Origin: a virus | Length of the DNA stretch: 64,000 bases | IMG/VR virus record: IMGVR_UViG_3300023179_000011 | Location: 124,001-188,000 of that record | Reading direction: 5' to 3' (one strand) | Shown here: positions 9,121-57,630 of the stretch, piece after piece | Layout: every line of letters starts with the position of its first letter | Position numbering within the stretch: position 1 is the stretch's first letter | Notes under the pieces: model-generated | The model's database searches: none | The model's input: the letters and a program-made list of their open reading frames with translations, nothing else | What the model was told of the DNA's origin: nothing | Translations under genes and position numbers: made by a program

Positions 9121-11001
9121 TCAAGGCTTCCACCCGCTTGTTGAGCCTGTTACGCCAAATTGCTCTCCCTGAGCTAAAGCAGGTACATAACTGCTACCCG
9201 CGGTATCGCTGCTTAAACCACGCTGTACGCTGTTCATAAGCCCTTTTTCCTGATACGAGCCCAACATGCGGGTCATCCAGTCAGGGTCGTTTGAGATGTT
9301 TGCCATGCCGCGCACCATTTCTGGCTGGAACGGCGGCGGTTCTTTATGCGCTTGAATTGTTTTAACGCCATATTTGTTTAAGTTTGTCAGCACGTTTTTA
9401 CCGATCTTTGTGCCGATTGAATAGTGCAACACGGGTTTTTCTAAATAGTGCCCGGTTAACGTGTTTGGCGCGGCCGATACGCTACCTTCTCGCGGCGTCC
9501 AATTACGCTCAATAGCGGAGTAAGGCACTACGTCGTCAGGCACGTAATCGCCGTATTCGTCGGTCAGGCGTACATGATTTACAAGTCCGCGCGCCAGTAG
9601 TTCGATGTTGCGGCGATGGGCTGTAATACCGCTGTTACCCATGACCTGCCGCATAGCTTGCACAAAATAACGACGTCCTTCGCCTACGCCTTTGTGCCGG
9701 ACAATTTCTGCTGGATTTGGCATACCCTCCGATATAACGTCACCAGCTTCAAGCTCATCGCCCTTTTTGACCGAAAGATTTCTCTCTGTCGGAACGTAGT
9801 GGTCCTGACCGTTAATCTGCACATAGTGGCCGCCCTGCGGAGCCGGACGAACTTCCTGCACACGGCCGTCTAGCTGCGCGTGCACGGCGCCGTCTGGGTA
9901 TTTCTTCGGGACCTGTACAAGCGCGTTGAGCGCTTTAAAACCCGAAATCGCTCCCGCGCCGCCGACACCGCCAGAGTGCTTCGAGCTGATCTGGCTTTGC
10001 GTGACTGGTTCCGACAGCGCCTGTGCTGCCGCGATACCCACATAATCTCCAACAGGCGGTAAACGCCCCTTTTCCCTGTAACCCACATCTTTCGCATAAA
10101 CACCGCCGTCCCCGGGGCCGCCAACAATCGGGCTGCGAACTAAGATATCTTTGGCGCCACTTTCCTTCAGATCCCGAAGTATCTTGGGCGTCAAAATTGT
10201 GTTGCGTTTATATGGCCCGACGGCGCGCGCTAATAACGCGCCCTCGTTATCCGGGTCGTCTACGTCGGTTGGGTACCCGCGCTCTTCTAGCGCGGCGCGG
10301 CGCTCTTCGTCGGTGTCGTCGTCATCATCCGCGGTAACCAACAGCCGATGCGTCATCTGCGCCAACTGTTTACCATAGAAACCAGCGTCAGCCGTTGCGG
10401 TTTTAAGATCAATTACGCCCTTACGTGTTCCGAATGCGCCGGCAAAATACTCTACCGGCCGCAAGCCTTGGCTGTATCCGCGCAATACCGGAATTGGAAT
10501 TGGATCGCCGCGATGGTCGAGATACTGCATGTCGGCGCCAAGAATTGAGTTCAGCTGAAATTTGTTGCCGACCCCAGAGCCGGCAATCTGGTGCGCCAGC
10601 GGATTGTCCTGCCCCTCGGCCTCCTTGTACACCTTGTCGAGCAGTTCTTGTTGCGCAGCCTGCGCCAGTTCAAGCAATTTAATATTGCGCTGTTTTTCAT
10701 CGAGCCGTTTGTCGGCAAAAATGTCGCGCATTTGATTCTGTACGCGCAACTGAACGTGCCGCGCCGCTAGCGTCGGACGAATATCTTTGAGTCCAAACGA
10801 TAAACCGTTCGTCGTGTAACCGGCATCACGACCAATGTCGTGAAGCCGCTTCATCACGTCACGATATTTTTCTGGGTGGTTTTTTGCCAAATCGGTGGCG
10901 ACGTTTGACATCGTTTTTTTAGTTAATACGCGATCATAGTCGCGCATTTCGGGCGGCAACGCTTCATTAATCAAAAGTTGTCCAAGCGTCGTCTTTAGCA
11001 T
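9121..11001 (-). CDS. RNA polymerase beta-prime subunit, C-terminal part
   Basis: A 626-aa protein that continues the beta-prime chain broken off in the 1467-aa gene. Near residue 205, FAGAFGTRKGVIDLKTATAD matches the region leading into the bridge helix. Near residue 340, GIAAAQALSEPVTQ and SSKHSGG match the trigger-loop region (bacterial GxxAAQSIGEPxTQ and FHTGG). A lysine-rich acidic insertion (DDDDDTDEE) lies between. With the fused beta/beta-prime-N protein it would complete the catalytic core. It starts 2 nt after the 79-aa gene. The sequence is far from host beta-prime, consistent with a deep-branching phage enzyme. Confidence 0.92.
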   Translation of the reverse strand: MLKTTLGQLLINEALPPEMRDYDRVLTKKTMSNVATDLAKNHPEKYRDVMKRLHDIGRDAGYTTNGLSFGLKDIRPTLAARHVQLRVQNQMRDIFADKRLDEKQRNIKLLELAQAAQQELLDKVYKEAEGQDNPLAHQIAGSGVGNKFQLNSILGADMQYLDHRGDPIPIPVLRGYSQGLRPVEYFAGAFGTRKGVIDLKTATADAGFYGKQLAQMTHRLLVTADDDDDTDEERRAALEERGYPTDVDDPDNEGALLARAVGPYKRNTILTPKILRDLKESGAKDILVRSPIVGGPGDGGVYAKDVGYREKGRLPPVGDYVGIAAAQALSEPVTQSQISSKHSGGVGGAGAISGFKALNALVQVPKKYPDGAVHAQLDGRVQEVRPAPQGGHYVQINGQDHYVPTERNLSVKKGDELEAGDVISEGMPNPAEIVRHKGVGEGRRYFVQAMRQVMGNSGITAHRRNIELLARGLVNHVRLTDEYGDYVPDDVVPYSAIERNWTPREGSVSAAPNTLTGHYLEKPVLHYSIGTKIGKNVLTNLNKYGVKTIQAHKEPPPFQPEMVRGMANISNDPDWMTRMLGSYQEKGLMNSVQRGLSSDTAGSSYVPALAQGEQFGVTGSTSGWKP

Positions 11002-11980: not shown

Positions 11981-14900
11981 TTACGTATTATCTTCCACAA
12001 TATGAACCGGGGTGTCCACCTCTATTTCGCCGCGGCGGTATGCCTGTACAGCGTCCTGCTTGCTACGAAACACACGTGGTTTGGCTTTTTTACTAATCCG
12101 GCTAGACGCTAAGTATAACCCGGTTTGGTAGTCTTTGTTAGGAACGTAGTGCGCGCGAAACGTCGATGTCGCGAACAAATTCTTGCTCGGCAGCATTTTT
12201 TCAACGGCTTCTTTCGCGGCGTCTTCTGTGCTTGGAACGTGATACTGCATCGCATCACCGTCAAAGTCGGCGCCAAACCCTTTGGTGATTACAGGGTTCA
12301 CTTCCATGACTTTGTTTTTAGTTAACTTGGGATAGAAAGCCATCATACCGTAGCGATGAAGTACCGGGGCGCGGTTGATAACAATCGGCCGCGACGACAT
12401 CTGCTGATTTAACTCAGCAAACGCTTCTTTGTTTTTATCTTCAACGGCCTGCATAGCTTGCATGCGCGGAAGGCCGCGGCGAACAAGCCCCCGAACAACG
12501 AACGGCTTGTAAATATCCCACGCTTTCTCTTCTGGCAGCGCAACTTCATCCATATCAAGGTCGGGATTTGGTGTAATGACGGCGCGACCGACAAGGTCTA
12601 CCGTCGAACTGAGCAGCTTGCGCTGAACAGTGCCGTATTTTGGCGAGTTACCAAACACGTGGCGTAGAAAACCTTTGACGTTGCGCTCGACGTTTTTAGG
12701 CTGCTGCGGCTCACCCAATCCGGTAACAGCCTTCATCGAGTCATACATGCTCAGCCGTTCGTCGCCGTAGTCGGCTAGCGCGCCAGAAGCTTCTTTCAGC
12801 GTATCGTTAGCGTCGAGCAATTCTTTGTACAGATAATTTGCGTCGGCCACGAGCGGTAACTTTTTGCTGCCCATCGTGCTCACGGGGCGGAAGAGCGGCG
12901 GCAGAACAGGGACTTTACTAATCATCCAGTCCTGCGGATGCACACCAGTTGTTTCGGCGCTCTTTAAAAAGCCGAGCCTGCGCACGGCGGCGTCGCGAAG
13001 CGTCTTGCGGCCGGATTTGATATCTAACCGCGCCTGCTCGATAGCTTTCGGTAGATTAATGCGCTCTAGGGCCGCCTTAATCGCGCCCGGACCTGTCTTG
13101 TCGCCCAGCTGCTCGCGGCCGGCCAGCACGCCGCGAAACTGTTTTTCTGTCATGCCGAGCACGCGGCGAATAGGATCTTCCATCACCGGGTTCGGCATCG
13201 GTTCATGCAGCGTGATCTTGCTCCACCGATTACCGCCGTGGCCGCCAGTTAGCATCTCGTCAAACAAGCCGCCGGCGATAGGTTTGAGCCGCCCCTTCCA
13301 GTCGACGGTCTCGGAGCTTTTGAGTTCCCGCGGGCCGGCGAGTTCGTCCACGTCTTTGTCGGTCATAGCCATCAGGTTCGAGCGCGTCCCCTTGCGAACA
13401 ACGTTGATACCAGACGCTTTGAGTTGATTAACAAACTTTTCGTAAACGTGCGGGACTTTGGGCAGCGGCGGCGTATACCCGGCCATGAACTGCGACCAGT
13501 ACTCGGGGTTCGCTTGCCCGCGCACCATTTTGGCGTCTCGAATAACTTTGCCGGCGCCGTGAGAAAGTAACGCACCCAGATCAAGCATGCCGACGCGCTT
13601 GGCGCCTTCGCTACCGCCCTTGGCCGGCGTTCCTTCGGCCGTGTAAGCGCCCATCGCGCGCCCCTGCGCTTTGGATTCGCTTGTATGGTGCAGCTTCATA
13701 AAAAAACGTGTGCCCGTCAGTACGCCGCCAATCTTTCGACCGGTTTCAGGGTCGATTACGTCCTCGGTGTCTGACAGCCCGTGTTTAGCGAGTTCTTTCT
13801 GCGCAAACTCGATCAGGTCGTTTTTGTTATCAAAGTCCTTGAGTTTGTACGGCGAGCCAGTCTGCGCGGCTACTTTGCCCAGTGCGGCCTCAATGACCTG
13901 TGCGGGATTAATGCGGCTGATAAGGCCAAGCGGCGACACGAGTACTTCAAACGCGTTACCGTCGCGATCCTTGGGCATCTGATCGTCGGGCACTATTTCG
14001 GCCACGACGCCCTTGTCACCAAAACGCCCGGTGAGTTTATCGCCGACGTCCATGGGCGCTTGATTTTTTACAACAACGCTTACGCCTTTTTTTGTGTGCA
14101 TGACGTCGGTCACAACACCCGGCGCGTGGTGTTCCCACGTAATCGTCTCGTTGGTGAAGTTGCCGGCACGCCCCCGGTGCACTTTACCGTACACCGTGTC
14201 CTTTTTCTTGGCGACAAGCACAAGCGGATCGCCAAATTTAACTTCAGTGCCTTTTTTAATCGCGCCGTTGTCGTCGAAGTTATCAAGAAACTTTTTATCG
14301 TATTCAGTTGGAAACAAACTCACGAACGCCTTCTTGCCAACGTGAGTATTGTCGTCCCACTCGGCTTCGTGCTGATACATGTGCTCAGACGTCAGCCGCT
14401 TGGAGGCAGATTCAGAGATAACAACAGCGTCTTCGTAGTTCTTGCCGCGAAACGGCAAATACGCCGTCCGCAAGTTCAGGCCAAGAGCCGCGCTACCGTT
14501 CTGATCAGTAAAGTTGGAGCGCGCCAGCAGTTGGCCGGGCTCAACAACATCACCCGGCTTCACGAGCGGCGTCTGATGTAAAAAAGTCTTTCGGTTGTAC
14601 GGCATCTCGTTATACAAATCGATTGTCTTTTTGTTGCCGTCTTTGTCGCGCAGCACAATACCGTCTGGCGTCACATCGACGACTTGCGCGCGTTCGGTCG
14701 CGCGAGTCGCGCCCAACTTCTCGCCCATCTCGTCTTCGTGCGAAACTTTGTCGTCATCGGCTTTCGCAGACTGCAGCAGCGGCGCCTCGGCGTTTACGAG
14801 TGGCAACGCCTGCGTAAACATTCGGCTACCCATGATCACGCGATGACCTTTGATCATCGATTTGATGGGCACCATGTTGGTCAGCGCAGAGAACGTGCTA

Positions 14901-16384
14901 TCCATGTTCGGCAAACCAAATTGCGCTTCTTTTCGCGGCACATACTTCAACTTGCCGTTTACGAGCGCCGCAACGACAGGCAAACCATTGTCTTCTTCGC
15001 CGGGGAACACGAGCGGCGTGTCGGCCAGTTCCTGCGGCGTCTTGTAGATCTTGTCGCCGGTTTTCATATCAATAACCGGCGTATAAATTTTGCCGTCGGA
15101 GCCCTTCATGGCGCCGCGGGCAAAACGCATATCAACGCCCACCTTGCCAGACTCAGGTGTGCGCAGGTAGTCAATAAACCCAAGATGACTTGGTTGCACG
15201 GAACGTGATTCAGCCGGTACAGCATCAAGCGACCCGATGCCGCCTTCGCCCATACGAGTGACACGAGTCTGGTGATCAAAAATTTCGGCTGGGTTGATCT
15301 CTTCAAGACTCGATCCAAGGCCGCTGCCAATAAGCGCAGCCGAAATTGCTTTATCAAACACACCCGACGGAATGTGATCAATTGATTTCTTGGCGGTGGC
15401 TTTCCAAAGCAATTTGTTAAGCGATTGCCGATCTTTCGTGAACCGCTCGGCAATCAAATCTTCTGGCCCGACGACCGACTGATAAACCATGTTGTCTCGG
15501 TCGTCGCTTTCTGTTTCGCGCCGATTGACGGCAATGAGTTTCTTTGTGATCGCCAAAATTGTTTCGGGCGTCATGTTTTTGTATTCAGCGCCCAGTGTTC
15601 GACGCGTAACTTCTGGATCTAATTCCGTCTTGGCAAATTCAGCTGCAATAGCTTGCGCTTTCGCAATAGCGTCTGCGCCGGCAACCGGTTTGTTCACAAG
15701 TCGGGCGTAGATCTTGTCCATCGTGCCGGCGTCGCCCTTCTCCATGTTGACGGCGGTAATCTCGTTGCCCCACGCTTTGCGAATGTCTTGATCAGACACG
15801 CCCATGGATTTGAGCAGCGGCATAAGCGGTATTTGTGCCTGCCCGATGCTAATCTTGAACACGCCGGTTTTGGGGTCGAGGAAGTAACGATGTGATCGGC
15901 CTTTACCGGGTAATGTGTTTACGTGCGCTTCAATTTCGCCGTTGTCTTTTTCGCGCGTAAACACGCCGGGACGCAAACGCATCTGATGGGCAAGTGTGTA
16001 CTCGACGCCGCCGTTGACGAATGTGCCCGAGTCAGTGAGATACGGCACGTGAGCAATCGTGGCACGGCGCTGACCAACCGGCTGCCCGGTTTTGTTATCA
16101 GTAAGCGTCCACGTACCCTGCAACCGGCGGGCAAGCGTCCCTCTAGAAAGGACAGCTTTCTTCTGATCTGACCGTGTAAAACGTTCAGGCCCTGAGTACC
16201 CAACGTCTTGAAGCTGCAACGTATACAGATCGTTTTGCAGCGGCTTGAGATTTTGCGCGCTATTCAGCGCCTGATTGAAAATGTTTTCTCGCATTAAACC
16301 AACGTCGCCAAACGTGCGCATTGTCGGCGCAACTGGCGCTGGCATGGGCGTCGGCTTTAATTCGGGCAGTTCGGGGGCTGGCAT
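11981..16384 (-). CDS. RNA polymerase beta subunit fused to N-terminal beta-prime
   Basis: A 1467-aa protein. The first ~950 residues are beta-like: GKNYEDAVVISES (bacterial GYNFEDAILISE) and GDKLTGRFGDKGVVAEI (bacterial GDKMAGRHGNKGV). The rest is beta-prime N-terminal: GGHGGNRWSKI, VLPPLFRP, SRPIVINRAPVLHRYG and, near residue 1370, GADFDGD, which keeps all three catalytic aspartates of NADFDGD although Asn is Gly. The chain stops ~90 residues later. The remainder of beta-prime is the gene at 9121-11001. Bacterial beta and beta-prime are normally separate and each unbroken. This would be the core of a phage transcription machine. No alpha or sigma gene is seen in the window. Confidence 0.95.
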   Translation of the reverse strand: MPAPELPELKPTPMPAPVAPTMRTFGDVGLMRENIFNQALNSAQNLKPLQNDLYTLQLQDVGYSGPERFTRSDQKKAVLSRGTLARRLQGTWTLTDNKTGQPVGQRRATIAHVPYLTDSGTFVNGGVEYTLAHQMRLRPGVFTREKDNGEIEAHVNTLPGKGRSHRYFLDPKTGVFKISIGQAQIPLMPLLKSMGVSDQDIRKAWGNEITAVNMEKGDAGTMDKIYARLVNKPVAGADAIAKAQAIAAEFAKTELDPEVTRRTLGAEYKNMTPETILAITKKLIAVNRRETESDDRDNMVYQSVVGPEDLIAERFTKDRQSLNKLLWKATAKKSIDHIPSGVFDKAISAALIGSGLGSSLEEINPAEIFDHQTRVTRMGEGGIGSLDAVPAESRSVQPSHLGFIDYLRTPESGKVGVDMRFARGAMKGSDGKIYTPVIDMKTGDKIYKTPQELADTPLVFPGEEDNGLPVVAALVNGKLKYVPRKEAQFGLPNMDSTFSALTNMVPIKSMIKGHRVIMGSRMFTQALPLVNAEAPLLQSAKADDDKVSHEDEMGEKLGATRATERAQVVDVTPDGIVLRDKDGNKKTIDLYNEMPYNRKTFLHQTPLVKPGDVVEPGQLLARSNFTDQNGSAALGLNLRTAYLPFRGKNYEDAVVISESASKRLTSEHMYQHEAEWDDNTHVGKKAFVSLFPTEYDKKFLDNFDDNGAIKKGTEVKFGDPLVLVAKKKDTVYGKVHRGRAGNFTNETITWEHHAPGVVTDVMHTKKGVSVVVKNQAPMDVGDKLTGRFGDKGVVAEIVPDDQMPKDRDGNAFEVLVSPLGLISRINPAQVIEAALGKVAAQTGSPYKLKDFDNKNDLIEFAQKELAKHGLSDTEDVIDPETGRKIGGVLTGTRFFMKLHHTSESKAQGRAMGAYTAEGTPAKGGSEGAKRVGMLDLGALLSHGAGKVIRDAKMVRGQANPEYWSQFMAGYTPPLPKVPHVYEKFVNQLKASGINVVRKGTRSNLMAMTDKDVDELAGPRELKSSETVDWKGRLKPIAGGLFDEMLTGGHGGNRWSKITLHEPMPNPVMEDPIRRVLGMTEKQFRGVLAGREQLGDKTGPGAIKAALERINLPKAIEQARLDIKSGRKTLRDAAVRRLGFLKSAETTGVHPQDWMISKVPVLPPLFRPVSTMGSKKLPLVADANYLYKELLDANDTLKEASGALADYGDERLSMYDSMKAVTGLGEPQQPKNVERNVKGFLRHVFGNSPKYGTVQRKLLSSTVDLVGRAVITPNPDLDMDEVALPEEKAWDIYKPFVVRGLVRRGLPRMQAMQAVEDKNKEAFAELNQQMSSRPIVINRAPVLHRYGMMAFYPKLTKNKVMEVNPVITKGFGADFDGDAMQYHVPSTEDAAKEAVEKMLPSKNLFATSTFRAHYVPNKDYQTGLYLASSRISKKAKPRVFRSKQDAVQAYRRGEIEVDTPVHIVEDNT

Positions 16385-21177: not shown

Positions 21178-22005
21178 TCACGCTTGCGGTACTAGTACAT
21201 ACGGACGGCCGTTAATTACCAACGTGCCGCCAATATTTATACCAGCATCTTTTGTGATAGGATACGCCGTTGTACGTTTACCGTACAGCTTAATGATTTC
21301 TGAAATGTCGCCTTCTTGCGGTTTTGTTACGTTTGGGTCGTAGTAGGGCGCCATGAGGTTGCCGGCGTTTAAATGCGGCAAACCGAGCGCATGCCCTAGT
21401 TCGTGGCAAATAACAGCCACGGCCATGTTAAAACTCCAATCTTCCGCTTCGTCAAACATTTGATCGAGCTGCACGTTTTCTGCGACGCCGCACGGAAGTT
21501 CGCTCCACGCGAGCGTACCACCTTTGTTATCTAAACCGTTTTTCTTACCGGCCCCAGAGCGCGCGTAAATATTGGCTTTTTTGTGCGTATCAACCCGCAC
21601 AGGATCAATAGCGCACACTTCAGCCCACTGAGAAAAAGCGATGTCATACGCTTCTGATACTTGCGCTGTTGTAAGCCCGGGCAGATGAATTTCGTGGTAG
21701 TACGAAATATTCGGTATCGGCCATTTACAAGGATCACTGCCCGACGCCGTGATGTTAAAGTCAGGCAGGCCGCAGCGCTTCCGGTTAATTCTATGCGCGG
21801 TCTTTGGTCCGACAGTTCCGGTCGGATTCAAACCATTGAATTCTTGAAACGAGCGAATCGCCTTTTGGAGTTCCGCGCCTTTGATTTTCTTGACTTGCGC
21901 CAGCGTTTTGTCGCCGAAATACCCCAGCACGTGGAGGCGGCGAAGGATCTCGCTAACGGGTAATACATGCGAGTCGTTCTTTTGATTTGTTGGCTTCCGT
22001 GCCAT
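21178..22005 (-). CDS. Matrix metalloprotease (M10-type) with PG-binding prodomain and cysteine switch
   Basis: A 275-aa protein with the full matrixin layout. Residues ~15-73 form a PG_binding_1-like helical domain (ALQ/FQ-type pattern AIRSFQEFNGLNPTG). R77-C78-G-L-P-D82 is the cysteine-switch motif (family PRCGxPD) that keeps these enzymes latent. HELGHALGLPH at 201-211 gives zinc ligands H201, H205 and H211 and the base E202. M218 in NLMAPYY is the Met-turn. No signal peptide is evident. It lies among exported and membrane genes. Domain order matches animal, plant and some bacterial matrixins, and transfer from such a source is likely. Confidence 0.88.
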   Translation of the reverse strand: MARKPTNQKNDSHVLPVSEILRRLHVLGYFGDKTLAQVKKIKGAELQKAIRSFQEFNGLNPTGTVGPKTAHRINRKRCGLPDFNITASGSDPCKWPIPNISYYHEIHLPGLTTAQVSEAYDIAFSQWAEVCAIDPVRVDTHKKANIYARSGAGKKNGLDNKGGTLAWSELPCGVAENVQLDQMFDEAEDWSFNMAVAVICHELGHALGLPHLNAGNLMAPYYDPNVTKPQEGDISEIIKLYGKRTTAYPITKDAGINIGGTLVINGRPYVLVPQA

Positions 22006-46670: not shown

Positions 46671-46797
46671 AGTGCAACCGTCGCTTTTGCTAACAATATC
46701 TCGCCCATTCTACTGCGCTCTATTCTATTACAAAAGACGAGCCGGGCAGAAAACTCGTTACGGCGGCCCCAAAACAGTTACCGGAGCGCTGATAGCT

Positions 46798-46839
46798 AAA
46801 AAAACGCTTAGCAGCCGGAAGTAGTTAACTCCCGGACTG
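46798..46839 (-). terminator. Terminator of the 177-aa gene
   Basis: On the minus strand an imperfect GC-rich hairpin (46812-46839) is followed, after CTAAGCG, by seven T, then AGCTATCAGCGC. The same T-run plus AGCTAT tail recurs at the other terminators of the 46-55 kb region. Confidence 0.65.
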
Positions 46840-51005: not shown

Positions 51006-51038
51006 GTGATATGCCCGGATTTTGATAGATATTTAGCC
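51006..51038 (-). promoter_or_regulatory. Two-box phage promoter candidate 2
   Basis: Minus strand reads GGCTAAATA, 15 nt, GCATATCAC. It lies 89 nt before the DUF2059-like gene and just after the 51066-51099 terminator and its AGCTATCAGC tail. The leader has a CTTGAT/ATCAAG hairpin. Confidence 0.65.
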
Positions 51039-51065
51039 CGGCGCTGATAGCTAAAGGAAGCGCTC

Positions 51066-51928: not shown

Positions 51929-53071
51929 TCAGCCAATCGACCGGGTCTTGAGCACCAGCTTTTCCTGCGCGGGCCATAACAGCATCTGCTGCATGGTATC
52001 CACGCTGGTGACATCCTTAAGCAGCTTGAGAGCTACCTGCGGATTCACCTGTATTACCTCGGAAGCTGGCTTCTCCTCTTTGCACGCCCGAGATAAATCT
52101 TCATACCGTGTGTACGTATCCCACACCCAATCCTCGCCGTTCTCGGGGTTGTGCTTTTTCAGCTCCCCGGTCACGTAATGATTGGTCTGCACAAGGCCGT
52201 GTTTCCTTGTGCGGATGTAGGTATGTTCCCCGGTATGTGTTACGACCGCGTGTTCTTTACTCTGCGTACCGACCACGTGCGCGAAGAATGGCACCATGGT
52301 TTGCTGCGTACGCAGATGAAAAACAAGCTTTTCGTAACTTGGCATTTTGTCGCAGACCGCTCGGACCCGCTGTAACGCCGGCCACGCTTGGAGCAGATCT
52401 TTGACAGATGCCGCGGTGTTTGTCACGTATGCAAACATCGCAGACAACGATCCCCACCAGCCCGTGTCTGTGCCGTCCTCGTCTTCTTCGTCGACAAGAG
52501 ACTTCACAATTGGGGCTTGATTGACAACCAACGCCCACTGGGCAGACATCGCGCTGACGACGCCCACCATGCCCGCAACGCCCACCGAAGTGTAGCTTTT
52601 GCGGCCACGATGAAAGCGAAGCAGCTTGGTGTGCTTGCCAGTAGAGGGAGGCGTCACCCAGTCCATGTTGCGCACAATGACTGGGGTGGAATTCACATCG
52701 AAGCTTGCAGAACTACATCCACAACCGTACATCTCGGCAAGAGACGTAAAGTCGTAAATTAAGTTCCCCAGCAGAAGCTTGCCGACAGGGACTTCAGCGT
52801 GCCGCGCAATGCACCGAAGTTCCTGCGGATACTCAAGGTCTGTACCCGTCAGGATCCAGCCCCCAAGTCGTCCACCGCCGCTTGTCACACTCTTTACGAC
52901 ACTTTTCATGGTGTCAGAAAGGTGCGGCAAGATTTCCTCGTCGACATGGGTTTCCACGTCTTCGAGGATGGACTGGATCGCGTCGCCATTTTGACGAGCG
53001 AACCCGGCCCAGCGTTCGTCCGGTGGTTCCTCCAGATCGATGTCATGAATCTTCCCGGTGAAAAGTTTCAT
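51929..53071 (-). CDS. Acid ceramidase/NAAA-like N-terminal nucleophile hydrolase
   Basis: A 380-aa protein. The N-terminal EEPPDERWAGFARQNGD resembles the alpha-chain start of acid ceramidase and NAAA. C119 in CGCSSASFD begins the beta-chain motif, and VIVRNMDW is the conserved RNxDW-type segment. LVQTNHYV matches the later QTN motif. In the family, self-cleavage exposes the Cys nucleophile, which hydrolyses linear amides such as N-acyl lipids. It is co-translated with the upstream coiled-coil gene (4-nt overlap). Lipid or signal amide cleavage in the host is possible. Confidence 0.8.
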   Translation of the reverse strand: MKLFTGKIHDIDLEEPPDERWAGFARQNGDAIQSILEDVETHVDEEILPHLSDTMKSVVKSVTSGGGRLGGWILTGTDLEYPQELRCIARHAEVPVGKLLLGNLIYDFTSLAEMYGCGCSSASFDVNSTPVIVRNMDWVTPPSTGKHTKLLRFHRGRKSYTSVGVAGMVGVVSAMSAQWALVVNQAPIVKSLVDEEDEDGTDTGWWGSLSAMFAYVTNTAASVKDLLQAWPALQRVRAVCDKMPSYEKLVFHLRTQQTMVPFFAHVVGTQSKEHAVVTHTGEHTYIRTRKHGLVQTNHYVTGELKKHNPENGEDWVWDTYTRYEDLSRACKEEKPASEVIQVNPQVALKLLKDVTSVDTMQQMLLWPAQEKLVLKTRSIG

Positions 53072-53525: not shown

Positions 53526-53540
53526 GCCGCGCTAATAGCT

Positions 53541-53581
53541 AAAAAAAGCGCCCGCAGGCGGAGGTCATACCTACGGGCGCT
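53541..53581 (-). terminator. Terminator of the 74-aa gene
   Basis: Stem AGCGCCCG/CGGGCGCT (53547-53554 with 53574-53581), extended inward by CAGG/CCT-type pairs, is followed on the minus strand by seven T and AGCTATTAGC. A classic factor-independent terminator. Confidence 0.85.
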
Positions 53582-54057: not shown

Positions 54058-54136
54058 GCTTAAGAAGTTCGTATGCGTTTTTCTTACAGCTATTTGACGT
54101 AAATCTTTGCGCGACAATACGTTACGGCTAATAGCT

Positions 54137-54175
54137 AAAAAAAAGGCGCCCAAGACTTTCGTCGAGGGCGCCTTT
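54137..54175 (-). terminator. Terminator after the tRNA-like element
   Basis: Stem GGCGCCC/GGGCGCC, extended by AA/TT, with a ~14-nt loop, followed on the minus strand by eight T and AGCTATTAGCC. It ends the transcript carrying the 75-aa gene and the tRNA-like element. Confidence 0.85.
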
Positions 54176-54271
54176 CCCAGAGTGCACTGTGGCATGCGGT
54201 GTGATATAGGAGGCCGGTCTGAAGAGCCAAAAAACACACCGAAACACCACAGCAACCCCGTTAAGGAGAAT

Positions 54272-54364
54272 ACCTCGCTGGGAATTGCACCCAGCCTGCC
54301 GCGAGGGTTTAAGCCTCGCTGCCGCGCACCAAACGTGCGCCGCCGGCAGTGTCTCTAGTGAGGT
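54272..54364 (-). ncRNA. tRNA-like RNA element with UAA anticodon-like loop
   Basis: Minus strand: ACCTC...GAGGT acceptor-like ends; an enlarged D-side hairpin (CTGCC/GGCAG outer and GCGCAC/GTGCGC inner); anticodon-like arm GCGAGG-CTTAAAC-CCTCGC; and T-arm CTGGG-TGCAATT-CCCAG, which keeps T54, C56, A58 and C61 but has G55. Acceptor is only 5 bp. It lies in the 3' part of the 75-aa gene's transcript, between that gene and a terminator. It may be a degenerate tRNA-Leu or a structured regulatory RNA. Confidence 0.45.
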
Positions 54365-54395
54365 GCAACCGCGCGGCCGCGCGGCTTAACTAACC

Positions 54396-54623
54396 CTAGA
54401 CAGGCTCGAACTCGGCGTCGACAACCGTGTAGCTGTCGAAGTCGTCGTTCAGGATCGCCGCTTCCGCGGGGATGCACTCGCAGACGCCCAGTGCAAGGCT
54501 GCAGTGCAGGCAGCGCTCAGTGTCGACGTCCGGCGGCGCAATCGCCGCAGCCAACACAAACAGCATGTCCCGGTAGTCGTCCACATTGACCTTCACCGCC
54601 GGGTTGTTGCGCGGACCAGCCAT
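54396..54623 (-). CDS. Small Cys-motif protein
   Basis: About 75 aa from ATG 54623, with AGGAGG 8 nt upstream. The frame above is a leader RNA. CLHCSLALGVCEC gives four or five cysteines in a zinc-binding layout, and the tail is acidic. It is expressed from promoter candidate 6 through an unusually long structured leader. Function unknown. Confidence 0.65.
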   Translation of the reverse strand: MAGPRNNPAVKVNVDDYRDMLFVLAAAIAPPDVDTERCLHCSLALGVCECIPAEAAILNDDFDSYTVVDAEFEPV

Positions 54624-54734
54624 AATCTCGTCCTCCTTGAAGAGAAATAAAACAACCGCCGTCTCGTGGCGGCACAACGCTAATGGTCTCTCGCCATTAG
54701 ACGGCCCCACCTATCACCGGGCAGGGGGTACGGC

Positions 54735-54805
54735 TGAGGATTGCTTAGCTCCCACGTAAAACCAGCCCACCTAGTGACTGGCGCGGCAGGAGCTATAGGT
54801 CCTCA
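54735..54805 (-). promoter_or_regulatory. Structured 5' leader RNA of the 75-aa gene
   Basis: Three nested perfect helices on the minus strand: TGAGGA/TCCTCA (54735-54740 with 54800-54805), TAGCTCC/GGAGCTA (54746-54752 with 54789-54795) and CCAG/CTGG. They begin right after the promoter box. A further hairpin CTAATGG/CCATTAG lies nearer the gene. Could control stability or translation. Confidence 0.55.
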
Positions 54806-54806
54806 A

Positions 54807-54839
54807 TAGATATGCCGTGTTTTTGGCAGATATTTAGCT
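54807..54839 (-). promoter_or_regulatory. Two-box phage promoter candidate 6
   Basis: Minus strand reads AGCTAAATA, 15 nt, GCATATCTA, then TTGAGGA. It follows the T-run and AGCTATCTGC of the 54854-54890 terminator and lies 184 nt before the 75-aa gene. Confidence 0.7.
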
Positions 54840-54853
54840 AGGAGCAGATAGCT

Positions 54854-54890
54854 AAAAAAAAGCCGGCAGGGGAGCGCACCCCTGCCGACT
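54854..54890 (-). terminator. Terminator of the large structured RNA
   Basis: Nine-bp stem CGGCAGGGG/CCCCTGCCG with a 6-nt loop, followed on the minus strand by eight T and AGCTATCTGC. It marks the 3' end of the non-coding transcript 54854-55310. Confidence 0.88.
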
Positions 54891-55310
54891 CTTGGCGAAT
54901 TAACGAGTCGCCACCCGTGCCGAAGCGACCAACCGGTCGCCAAAAGAATCGTTAGCACAAGAAACGCTCGTGAGGACAGGTATCACTACCCGCCTACGCT
55001 CTGCAGCCGTTTGTTAGGTCACAGACAGGTTCGCGTTGTACGGACGCAAACCTTTGTTATTTAAAACTAGTCTGGCAGGTCTTTCACCTGCATCACCCGC
55101 TCCCCTAGACGTAATGTTTAGTGTAGTCGAGTGGAATCACTTGGAATAGCCAACGAGGCCCGGGCGGGGCAGCCCGCTATTCCGCCATTTACCCTAACGG
55201 TTCCTGCAAAACATTTCACGAAAACTGCTCGCCCAGCCCTCTGCATGCACCTAGAGATAGGTTCATACACATGCTTCTCACGAGCGTTTCTTGTGCCAAC
55301 GCGGGTATTG
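54854..55310 (-). ncRNA. Large structured non-coding RNA, closed by a 20-bp long-range helix
   Basis: No convincing ORF is present, yet the region is highly structured. Positions 54955-54974 and 55277-55296 are perfect 20-nt inverted repeats; a few more pairs follow past one mismatch. Inside on the minus strand are GGAATAGC/GCTATTCC, a hairpin GCAGGT-GAAAG-ACCTGC and GGTTTGCGT/ACGCGAACC. Near the 3' side is GCGACC-GGTT-GGTCGC, and the region ends in a strong terminator. Size and style recall ornate RNAs such as ROOL or GOLLD that phages carry, but I do not recognise it as either. It lacks the RNase P and tmRNA signatures I know. Confidence 0.7.
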
Positions 55311-55325
55311 TAACACCCGAATGAG

Positions 55326-55538
55326 CTACGTCAACGTGTCGATATAGTGCTGCGTCGAGCACACATAACGCGTGACGATTTCTTCGGCATCACACCCGGG
55401 GCAGCGCTGGTCTAACTCTTGGACCAGCGTGCCCATCGACCGGCGGATATTTAACAGCGCGCGCCGAAGTTGTTTTACTTCGATCTCCGCATCTGTTTTA
55501 TATCTCGTCCCGCTCTTGGTGTTTACTGTCGGCGCCAA
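55326..55538 (-). CDS. Small protein with CPGC motif
   Basis: About 70 aa from the TTG at 55538, preceded by AAGGAG 9 nt upstream. An ATG at 55613 would overlap the previous gene by 116 nt and has no site. Basic helical segment (EVKQLRRALLNIRRSM), then CPGCDAEEIVTRYVC, a possible zinc or redox motif. Function unknown. Confidence 0.55.
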   Translation of the reverse strand: MAPTVNTKSGTRYKTDAEIEVKQLRRALLNIRRSMGTLVQELDQRCPGCDAEEIVTRYVCSTQHYIDTLT

Positions 55539-55794
55539 TGCTGTCTTCTCCTTGTTTACTACTTCCGTCCACCACTGGTTGTTCCAGTTCACTGCCTTCT
55601 GACTCGCTGGCATCTTTATACGCTATCAGCAGCGCTTCCTTGAGTGTGTCAATCAGGGTGTTTGCGCACGTGTCGATCACTTTACGCTGATACTCCAGCT
55701 TGTCAATCGTCTCGCGCATCTCGTCTCTGGTTTTTACCAGCGTCTCGGCCAGCTTGAGCAGCGATTGCGCCAACGCTATCGACAGATTGTCCAC
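55498..55794 (-). CDS. Helical protein, 98 aa
   Basis: Starts at GTG 55794 with AGGAG 6 nt upstream. The first ~60 residues are strongly helical (LLKLAETLVKTRDEMRETI) and possibly coiled-coil. The tail is acidic and disordered. It overlaps the following gene's start. No family recognised. Confidence 0.65.
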   Translation of the reverse strand: MDNLSIALAQSLLKLAETLVKTRDEMRETIDKLEYQRKVIDTCANTLIDTLKEALLIAYKDASESEGSELEQPVVDGSSKQGEDSIGADSKHQERDEI

Positions 55795-57021: not shown

Positions 57022-57276
57022 TGGATGTACCTTTCAAAAAAAAGAAAAACCGGGCGGGCCCTTTACGTTCCGGCCCTATAACCCAAGACGAGCTGCAGCT
57101 CTTCTTGGAAACCCTCCACGTCGAAATCCACGCCGCGAGATTCCCGCAGCGGTCTTCGATTGGTAAGGGATACCCGGTTAGACAACGGTGCGCTCAGGTA
57201 TGCTAGCTGTCGCTGAATAGAAAGCTTGGGCCGTGGGCATACCATTTTGGCCTAGTTTTTTCTACTCCCGTTGTGA
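57022..57276. other. Intergenic stretch between DUF4314-like gene and tmRNA
   Basis: I see no confident gene. A minus-strand frame ending GFQEELQLVLGYRAGT is open for 60 codons but lacks a ribosome binding site. Near 57030-57080 the minus strand has a GC-rich inverted segment followed by TTTTTCTTTTTTTT, a possible terminator of the tmRNA transcript. Confidence 0.35.
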
Positions 57277-57630
57277 TGGAGGCGGCGGGAATCGAACCCG
57301 CGTCCTGAGATGTTTCAGTTCAGACGTCTACGTGCGTATCTGGTGAATTTAGTCTCACCTGAGTGTCACCCTACCAGCGCGGTAACAGTACAGGCCAGCT
57401 CTGAACAAATTTAAACTAGCAGGACAGAGCAGTGAGCTAGGCGAGTCGGATTTGGCGACCGCTAGACAACCCTTCCGACTGGGGCTGGTTCGCGGGCTGC
57501 TGATTTTACTCAGGCAGCGATGGCAAGAGTGTTGCCGACTAACATTTGATCGAGTTTTAACGTGGCCACCCGATCAACCACGACACGCAGTCTTGAACCT
57601 CCGTCATCCAGTCGATACCAGTACGCCCCC
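57277..57630 (-). ncRNA. ssrA: Transfer-messenger RNA (tmRNA)
   Basis: The 5' end GGGGGCGTACTGGTATCGAC and 3' end GACGCGGGTTCGATTCCCGC plus CGCCTCCA pair into the tmRNA acceptor and T-arm. Acceptor is GGGGGCG/CGCCTCC. Inside, UUAGUC is followed by resume codon GGC and a reading frame of eight codons, tag GNTLAIAA then stop (57510-57536). Length is 354 nt. CCA is not encoded. It would rescue stalled ribosomes and tag nascent chains for proteolysis. Confidence 0.92.

Follow-up and report, generated by a model that had tools for sequence, protein, structure and literature searches.

Ornate RNAs of the size and complexity described here are, to our knowledge, few in bacteria and phages. The function of the known ornate RNAs is uncertain, though some form cages made of RNA only. 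ROOL is a large, multi-branched, stand-alone non-coding RNA (ncRNA) of phages and prophages, often found near tRNA genes, whose function is unknown, and GOLLD is a phage-encoded ornate RNA near tRNA islands, often over 800 nt long, the expression of which rises during lysis; both form RNA cages (PMC12286853). The ncRNA analyzed here lies on the minus strand, from about 55301 to 54854, of a 64,000-nt window (the whole stretch of DNA that was analyzed), itself a part of the 199,845-base virus record IMGVR_UViG_3300023179_000011. It is a real, new structured-RNA family that resembles ROOL and GOLLD in kind and setting; homology to them was tested by covariance model and was not found. The features of the locus are given below in positions of the window, where the close set denotes eight closely related sequences and L072 a distant member, both described further on.

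54854..55301, minus strand: whole predicted ncRNA transcript of about 448 nt, based on the fold z-score, conservation edges at the start site and terminator, and covariation
55307..55334, minus strand: promoter-like site TTGACG-N16-TACAAT with TG ahead of the second hexamer; predicted start at about 55301
55277..55301, minus strand: 5' arm of closing helix P1, whose 25 pairs include 9 with double compensatory changes; 99.5% of alignment cells pair
54950..54974, minus strand: closing helix P1, 3' arm; same evidence as for the 5' arm
55243..55274, minus strand: hairpin P2, which has an inner stem and a UCUC loop; 100% of cells pair, with a double change in one pair
55220..55241, minus strand: hairpin P3; double changes in 4 of 8 pairs
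54996..55214, minus strand: domain P4, enclosing P5 to P8; no double change in the close set
55143..55183, minus strand: helix P5; double changes in 3 of 8 outer-stem pairs in the close set and in 6 of 8 with L072
55093..55134, minus strand: helix P6; one double-changed pair, and pairing in 98.6% of cells
55075..55091, minus strand: hairpin P7 (GCAGGUGAAAGACCUGC); nearly invariant and also kept in L072
55022..55074, minus strand: P8; double changes in 6 of 10 pairs of its terminal hairpin (55053-55027)
54975..54994, minus strand: hairpin P9; 100% of cells paired in 9 of 9 sequences
54894..54941, minus strand: 3' domain hairpins P10 (54941-54924) and P11 (54912-54894)
54854..54893, minus strand: intrinsic terminator and U-run; 15-pair stem with 9 G-C pairs, loop of 6

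The folding energy of the minus strand was -230.8 kcal/mol, compared with a mean of -167.3 for shuffled sequences (z = -10.8; none of 100 shuffles was equal), while the fold of the plus strand was weaker (z = -6.6). The core of the RNA comprises about 350 nt. The first-pass annotation had described perfect 20-nt inverted repeats 302 nt apart, several internal helices, no open reading frame (ORF) and a very strong 3' terminator. The repeats are real and form part of the 25-pair helix P1, in which 55301-55277 pair with 54974-54950 with one G-U pair among the 25; the internal hairpins are real as well, and the 15-pair terminator stem with its 6-nt loop, followed by a T-run, occupies 54893-54858. 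A comparison of the reading frames across homologues revealed no conserved ORF within the RNA, as stop codons, and indels whose length is not a multiple of three, interrupt the frames, in agreement with the annotation. These data also refine the earlier observation, in that the RNA is on the minus strand, with the transcript probably starting at about 55301 and ending at about 54854.

The predicted start corresponds to about the first base of P1 and derives from a sigma-70-like site that matches the consensus at 10 of 12 positions. Four promoter-like sites were found in 7.5 kb against 4.6 expected, so that a single site is no better than chance, and the promoter call therefore rests on conservation. 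All eight close homologues retain TTGAC at a spacing of 16 nt from TACAAT or TAGAAT (TAAACT in L037), even where the flanking sequence is only 40% identical; no promoter was recognizable in L072. The conserved site is a candidate for the RNA's own promoter. Further, identity to the window jumps at the predicted start site and drops past the terminator, the values in L037 being 0.40 immediately upstream of the start, 0.96 immediately downstream of it and 0.34 beyond the terminator.

Pattern scans and a neighboring-protein scan of IMG/VR gave eight sequence-distinct copies on phage contigs, including the window, which are 78–97% identical and represent few independent lineages. The long contigs with the RNA are 194–205 kb in length, and the seven long records in which it occurs have one copy of the RNA apiece. 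RNAalifold predicted 151 pairs from the eight-sequence alignment, 31 of them with compensatory double changes. In a cleaned structure of 140 pairs, double changes occurred in 30 pairs (63 cells) and 98.8% of the cells paired, a percentage that is favored by the derivation of the structure from the same sequences, whereas the double changes are not so explained. None of 500 shuffles reached the covariation values of the cleaned structure, and slid controls showed 35–44% pairing and no more than seven pairs with double changes. The search for covariation in relatives that the annotation had recommended thus revealed abundant compensatory changes, which, together with the lack of an Rfam match, supported its proposal of a dedicated ncRNA.

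Perfect inverted repeats are also visible in the DNA itself and might belong to a DNA-level element, such as an origin, a cruciform or a recombination site, rather than to an RNA. Among the non-Watson-Crick cells, however, G-U combinations numbered 130 and A-C combinations 6, a strand asymmetry of which DNA would show no sign, and the terminator is on the same strand. The selected molecule is therefore the minus-strand RNA, and a DNA element has next to no probability.

The distant member, L072, is a contig (203-kb record) that was reached by a protein profile of the upstream gene, at 44% identity. A covariance model built from the eight close sequences only gave 57.8 bits (E = 1.5e-17) for L072, the sole match in its record, and the RNA is located downstream of the same upstream gene, with an extra stretch in between. 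At the aligned core positions, L072 and the window are 61% identical (118/192). When folded unaided, the L072 sequence adopted the same P1–P9 plan (z = -8.3), in which a 27-bp helix closes a structure made up of two hairpins, a multi-branched domain and a final hairpin; its P1 has 27 contiguous pairs with a sequence largely different from that of the close set. This single-sequence fold is the stronger argument, because the alignment of L072 was fitted to the model. With L072 added, double changes were observed in 21 of 72 core pairs. Taken together, these comparisons indicate at the sequence level that the fold is kept by evolution through compensatory change across nine phage sequences.

Individual elements differ in how they are conserved. 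The domain P4 pairs 55214-55204 with 55006-54996 and 55198-55193 with 55018-55013, and double changes appeared in 3 of its 11 outer pairs with the addition of L072. The sequence of P2 is strongly conserved, and AUGAAC..AUCUCU.GGUGCA.GC is common to L072 as judged by eye. In the 3' domain, 87.5% of the cells of P11 are paired and 3 of its 5 pairs carry double changes. Candidate self-contacts in the close set are the palindromic GCCCGGGC and an invariant CCGUACA loop; both are absent from L072, and we therefore claim no oligomer contact. No pseudoknot with convincing covariation support was found.

In the close set, 74% of the unpaired core columns show no variation, a share as large as that among paired columns, and their invariance suggests contacts beyond pairing. 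The RNA is conserved as well as or better than the adjacent proteins, and better in the more distant members; in L037, the RNA is 84% identical and the upstream protein 53%. Such conserved unpaired positions would also fit a trans-acting decoy or inhibitor of a host factor (an RNase, a dsRNA sensor, a defense complex or a ribosome-associated factor), which would be active as a monomer by means of the long P1 duplex together with the loops conserved in sequence. P1 stays a perfect or near-perfect duplex of 25–27 bp despite sequence change, and the host-type promoter-like site suits early action. We nevertheless consider a decoy unlikely, as the multi-branched core is more elaborate than this role needs and no defense gene was detected among the eight flanking proteins tested, which gave only two weak partial PADLOC scores.

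In each of the eight copies, the same small gene (55326-55613 in the window) lies upstream of the RNA, and the gene at 54396-54710 follows it wherever that side could be checked. The latter gene is on the same strand as the RNA, with the terminator upstream of the gene, an arrangement found in most copies that is compatible with a cis-regulatory leader (a riboswitch or an attenuator) of this gene. However, the distance from the RNA start to the start of the downstream gene is 946 nt in L012, compared with about 590–660 nt elsewhere, and the L072 contig was not among the results of the scan for this gene. A search for covarying alternative (anti-terminator) pairings revealed none, and the RNA by itself is a complete unit; hence, only a very small chance is left to a leader. 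Comparison of the neighboring proteins with Pfam, PHROGs and PADLOC revealed no link to the function of the RNA. Consistent with the setting noted in the first-pass annotation for ornate phage RNAs, tRNA and tmRNA genes are located 2–5 kb from the RNA on the same strand, and also nearby in relatives.

Several observations concern the surroundings in their own right. The tmRNA at 57274-57630 (minus strand), 2 kb from the RNA, scored 149.5 bits in Rfam and was not called by ARAGORN; the tmRNAs called by ARAGORN in relatives have an odd 25-aa tag or GAYAPALAA, and in farther phage contigs (L013, 19853-20104; L015, 18483-18731) a permuted tmRNA was found that also scores as the betaproteobacterial type. 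The minus-strand ORFs 55326-55613 and 55498-55794 overlap by 116 nt in different frames, and both are conserved in 7 of 7 sequence-distinct relatives. In Pfam, a gene at 51929-53071 (minus strand), conserved in relatives, matched an acyltransferase (AAT) and, below the cutoff, NAAA-beta, and the ORF translation of 21178-22005 (minus strand) contains the zinc-metalloprotease motif HELGHALGLPH.

A second conserved, non-coding structured element was observed after the gene 54396-54710, at 54260-54391 on the minus strand, with the hairpin CTGGGTGCAATTCCCAG and a tRNA-anticodon-like loop, CTTAAAC. It has homologues in L009, L011 and L034, with a compensatory stem change from AGG/CCT to AGC/GCT in L034, showed no Rfam tRNA match, and is followed by a GGCGCC-T8 terminator near 54140. 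The motif TTTTTTAGCTAT occurs eight times with at most one mismatch, against 0.31 expected, with 7 of 8 occurrences on the minus strand (sites include 54848-54859, 54131-54142, 53535-53546 and 46792-46803). The copies at 54848 and 54131 are placed after a terminator hairpin, as likewise in L072, and TTTTTTAGCTAT may represent a shared terminator or post-terminator motif of the phage group. Past transcription-unit ends on the minus strand, 54801-54850 and 51008-51055 hold 81% identical copies of a repeat of the form AGCTAT-N8/10-GCTAAATATCT. Additional copies are present in L008, L011 and L012, and the repeat is possibly a phage promoter.

Searches of Rfam 15 with the RNA gave no family match at gathering scores or at E values up to 10, and chance matches were far below gathering. 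This outcome bears out the statement of the earlier annotation that it could match no known class. The covariance models of OLE, raiA, HEARO, RNase P, tmRNA and 6S RNA gave no match, and L072 matched no Rfam model at E values up to 5. These results bear on a possible ribozyme or an RNA with a processing function (RNase P-like, self-cleaving or intron-derived), to which the large size, the conserved internal loops and the compact multi-helix core would be suited. Neither the ribozyme nor the RNase P or intron models matched, at E values up to 10 (5 for L072), and the surroundings are without exon or ORF structure, which makes such an activity quite improbable.

Blast with the RNA detected no match in 50,697 phage records or 72,556 plasmids. 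A conserved 17-mer scan of GTDB genomes returned three matches, all rejected as chance (profile score of about 6 bits), and looser patterns in IMG/VR returned 13 further contigs, none of which fitted the covariance model. The models R1 and R2 found nothing in farther phages with the neighboring protein at 38–51% identity, most of whose contigs are partial, or in two isolated phages with a similar long polymerase protein, Salmonella phage Arash and Vibrio phage D69. Several of the records are fragments, and these searches therefore do not prove absence in more distant relatives. On present evidence, the family occurs only in a single group of phages, whose genomes are near 200 kb in size. No published description of the RNA was found in the literature searched.

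RNA polymerase genes are present on the minus strand at 9121-11001 and 11981-16384. A 1467-aa protein matches beta and contains the beta' motif DFDGD, a separate 626-aa protein is polymerase-like, and the nearest annotated relatives of the 1467-aa protein are from Salmonella phage Arash and Vibrio phages D69, D148 and D181 (about 32%). A beta/beta' polymerase encoded by the phage makes control of the host polymerase plausible, as would be exerted by a 6S-like regulator. The fold, however, is multi-branched rather than a single long hairpin with a bubble at its center, and no 6S match exists in Rfam; we thus assign a 6S-like regulator a minimal probability.

We are highly confident that the RNA is a new structured, trans-acting RNA, and a trans role is favored because the unit is self-contained. 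We infer that the host sigma-70 RNA polymerase would transcribe it, probably early, given that the phage has a beta/beta' polymerase of its own as well. Folding would follow, with P1 clamping the two core ends together, and the conserved core may act in trans as a scaffold, either as the core of a ribonucleoprotein (RNP) or, like ROOL and GOLLD, in a homo-oligomeric particle. As a first guess from the tRNA and tmRNA neighbors, this might affect translation or the handling of tRNAs or ribosomes during infection. We propose this scaffold or particle mechanism tentatively, at somewhat less than an even chance, and it is rather doubtful that an ornate RNA unrelated to ROOL and GOLLD assembles here into an RNA-only or RNP particle during infection. 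Antisense targets of at least 13 nt were absent from the window, and counts at 11–12 nt were near the shuffled level; neither partner protein nor target was found among the flanking proteins or as antisense within the window, which counts against the scaffold reading. The whole reading, a stand-alone structured ncRNA gene of a new family within one group of large phages that serves as a trans scaffold, appears reasonably probable.

With nine sequences, supporting covariation and sharp boundaries, the new family offers a compact object for cryo-EM, chemical probing and infection genetics, and it would make it possible to address whether ornate phage RNAs, though unrelated in sequence, have a common role, perhaps in translation. 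If the particle reading is true, RNAs of this type have had more than one origin in large phages. Like OLE, the RNA is large and ornate with a conserved structure, but it has no Rfam OLE match. A tmRNA gene is 2 kb away on the same strand, whereas the RNA itself shows neither a tmRNA match nor a conserved reading frame. GOLLD is likewise an ornate phage RNA near tRNA genes, although it is often over 800 nt, compared with about 450 nt here, and no Rfam match was obtained, including for L072. From ROOL the RNA differs in the lack of an Rfam ROOL match (E up to 10, and none for L072) and in that pseudoknots are unsupported here; what is known of it from sequence alone is nevertheless ROOL-like, namely a large, multi-branched, stand-alone ncRNA with a phage location near tRNA genes.
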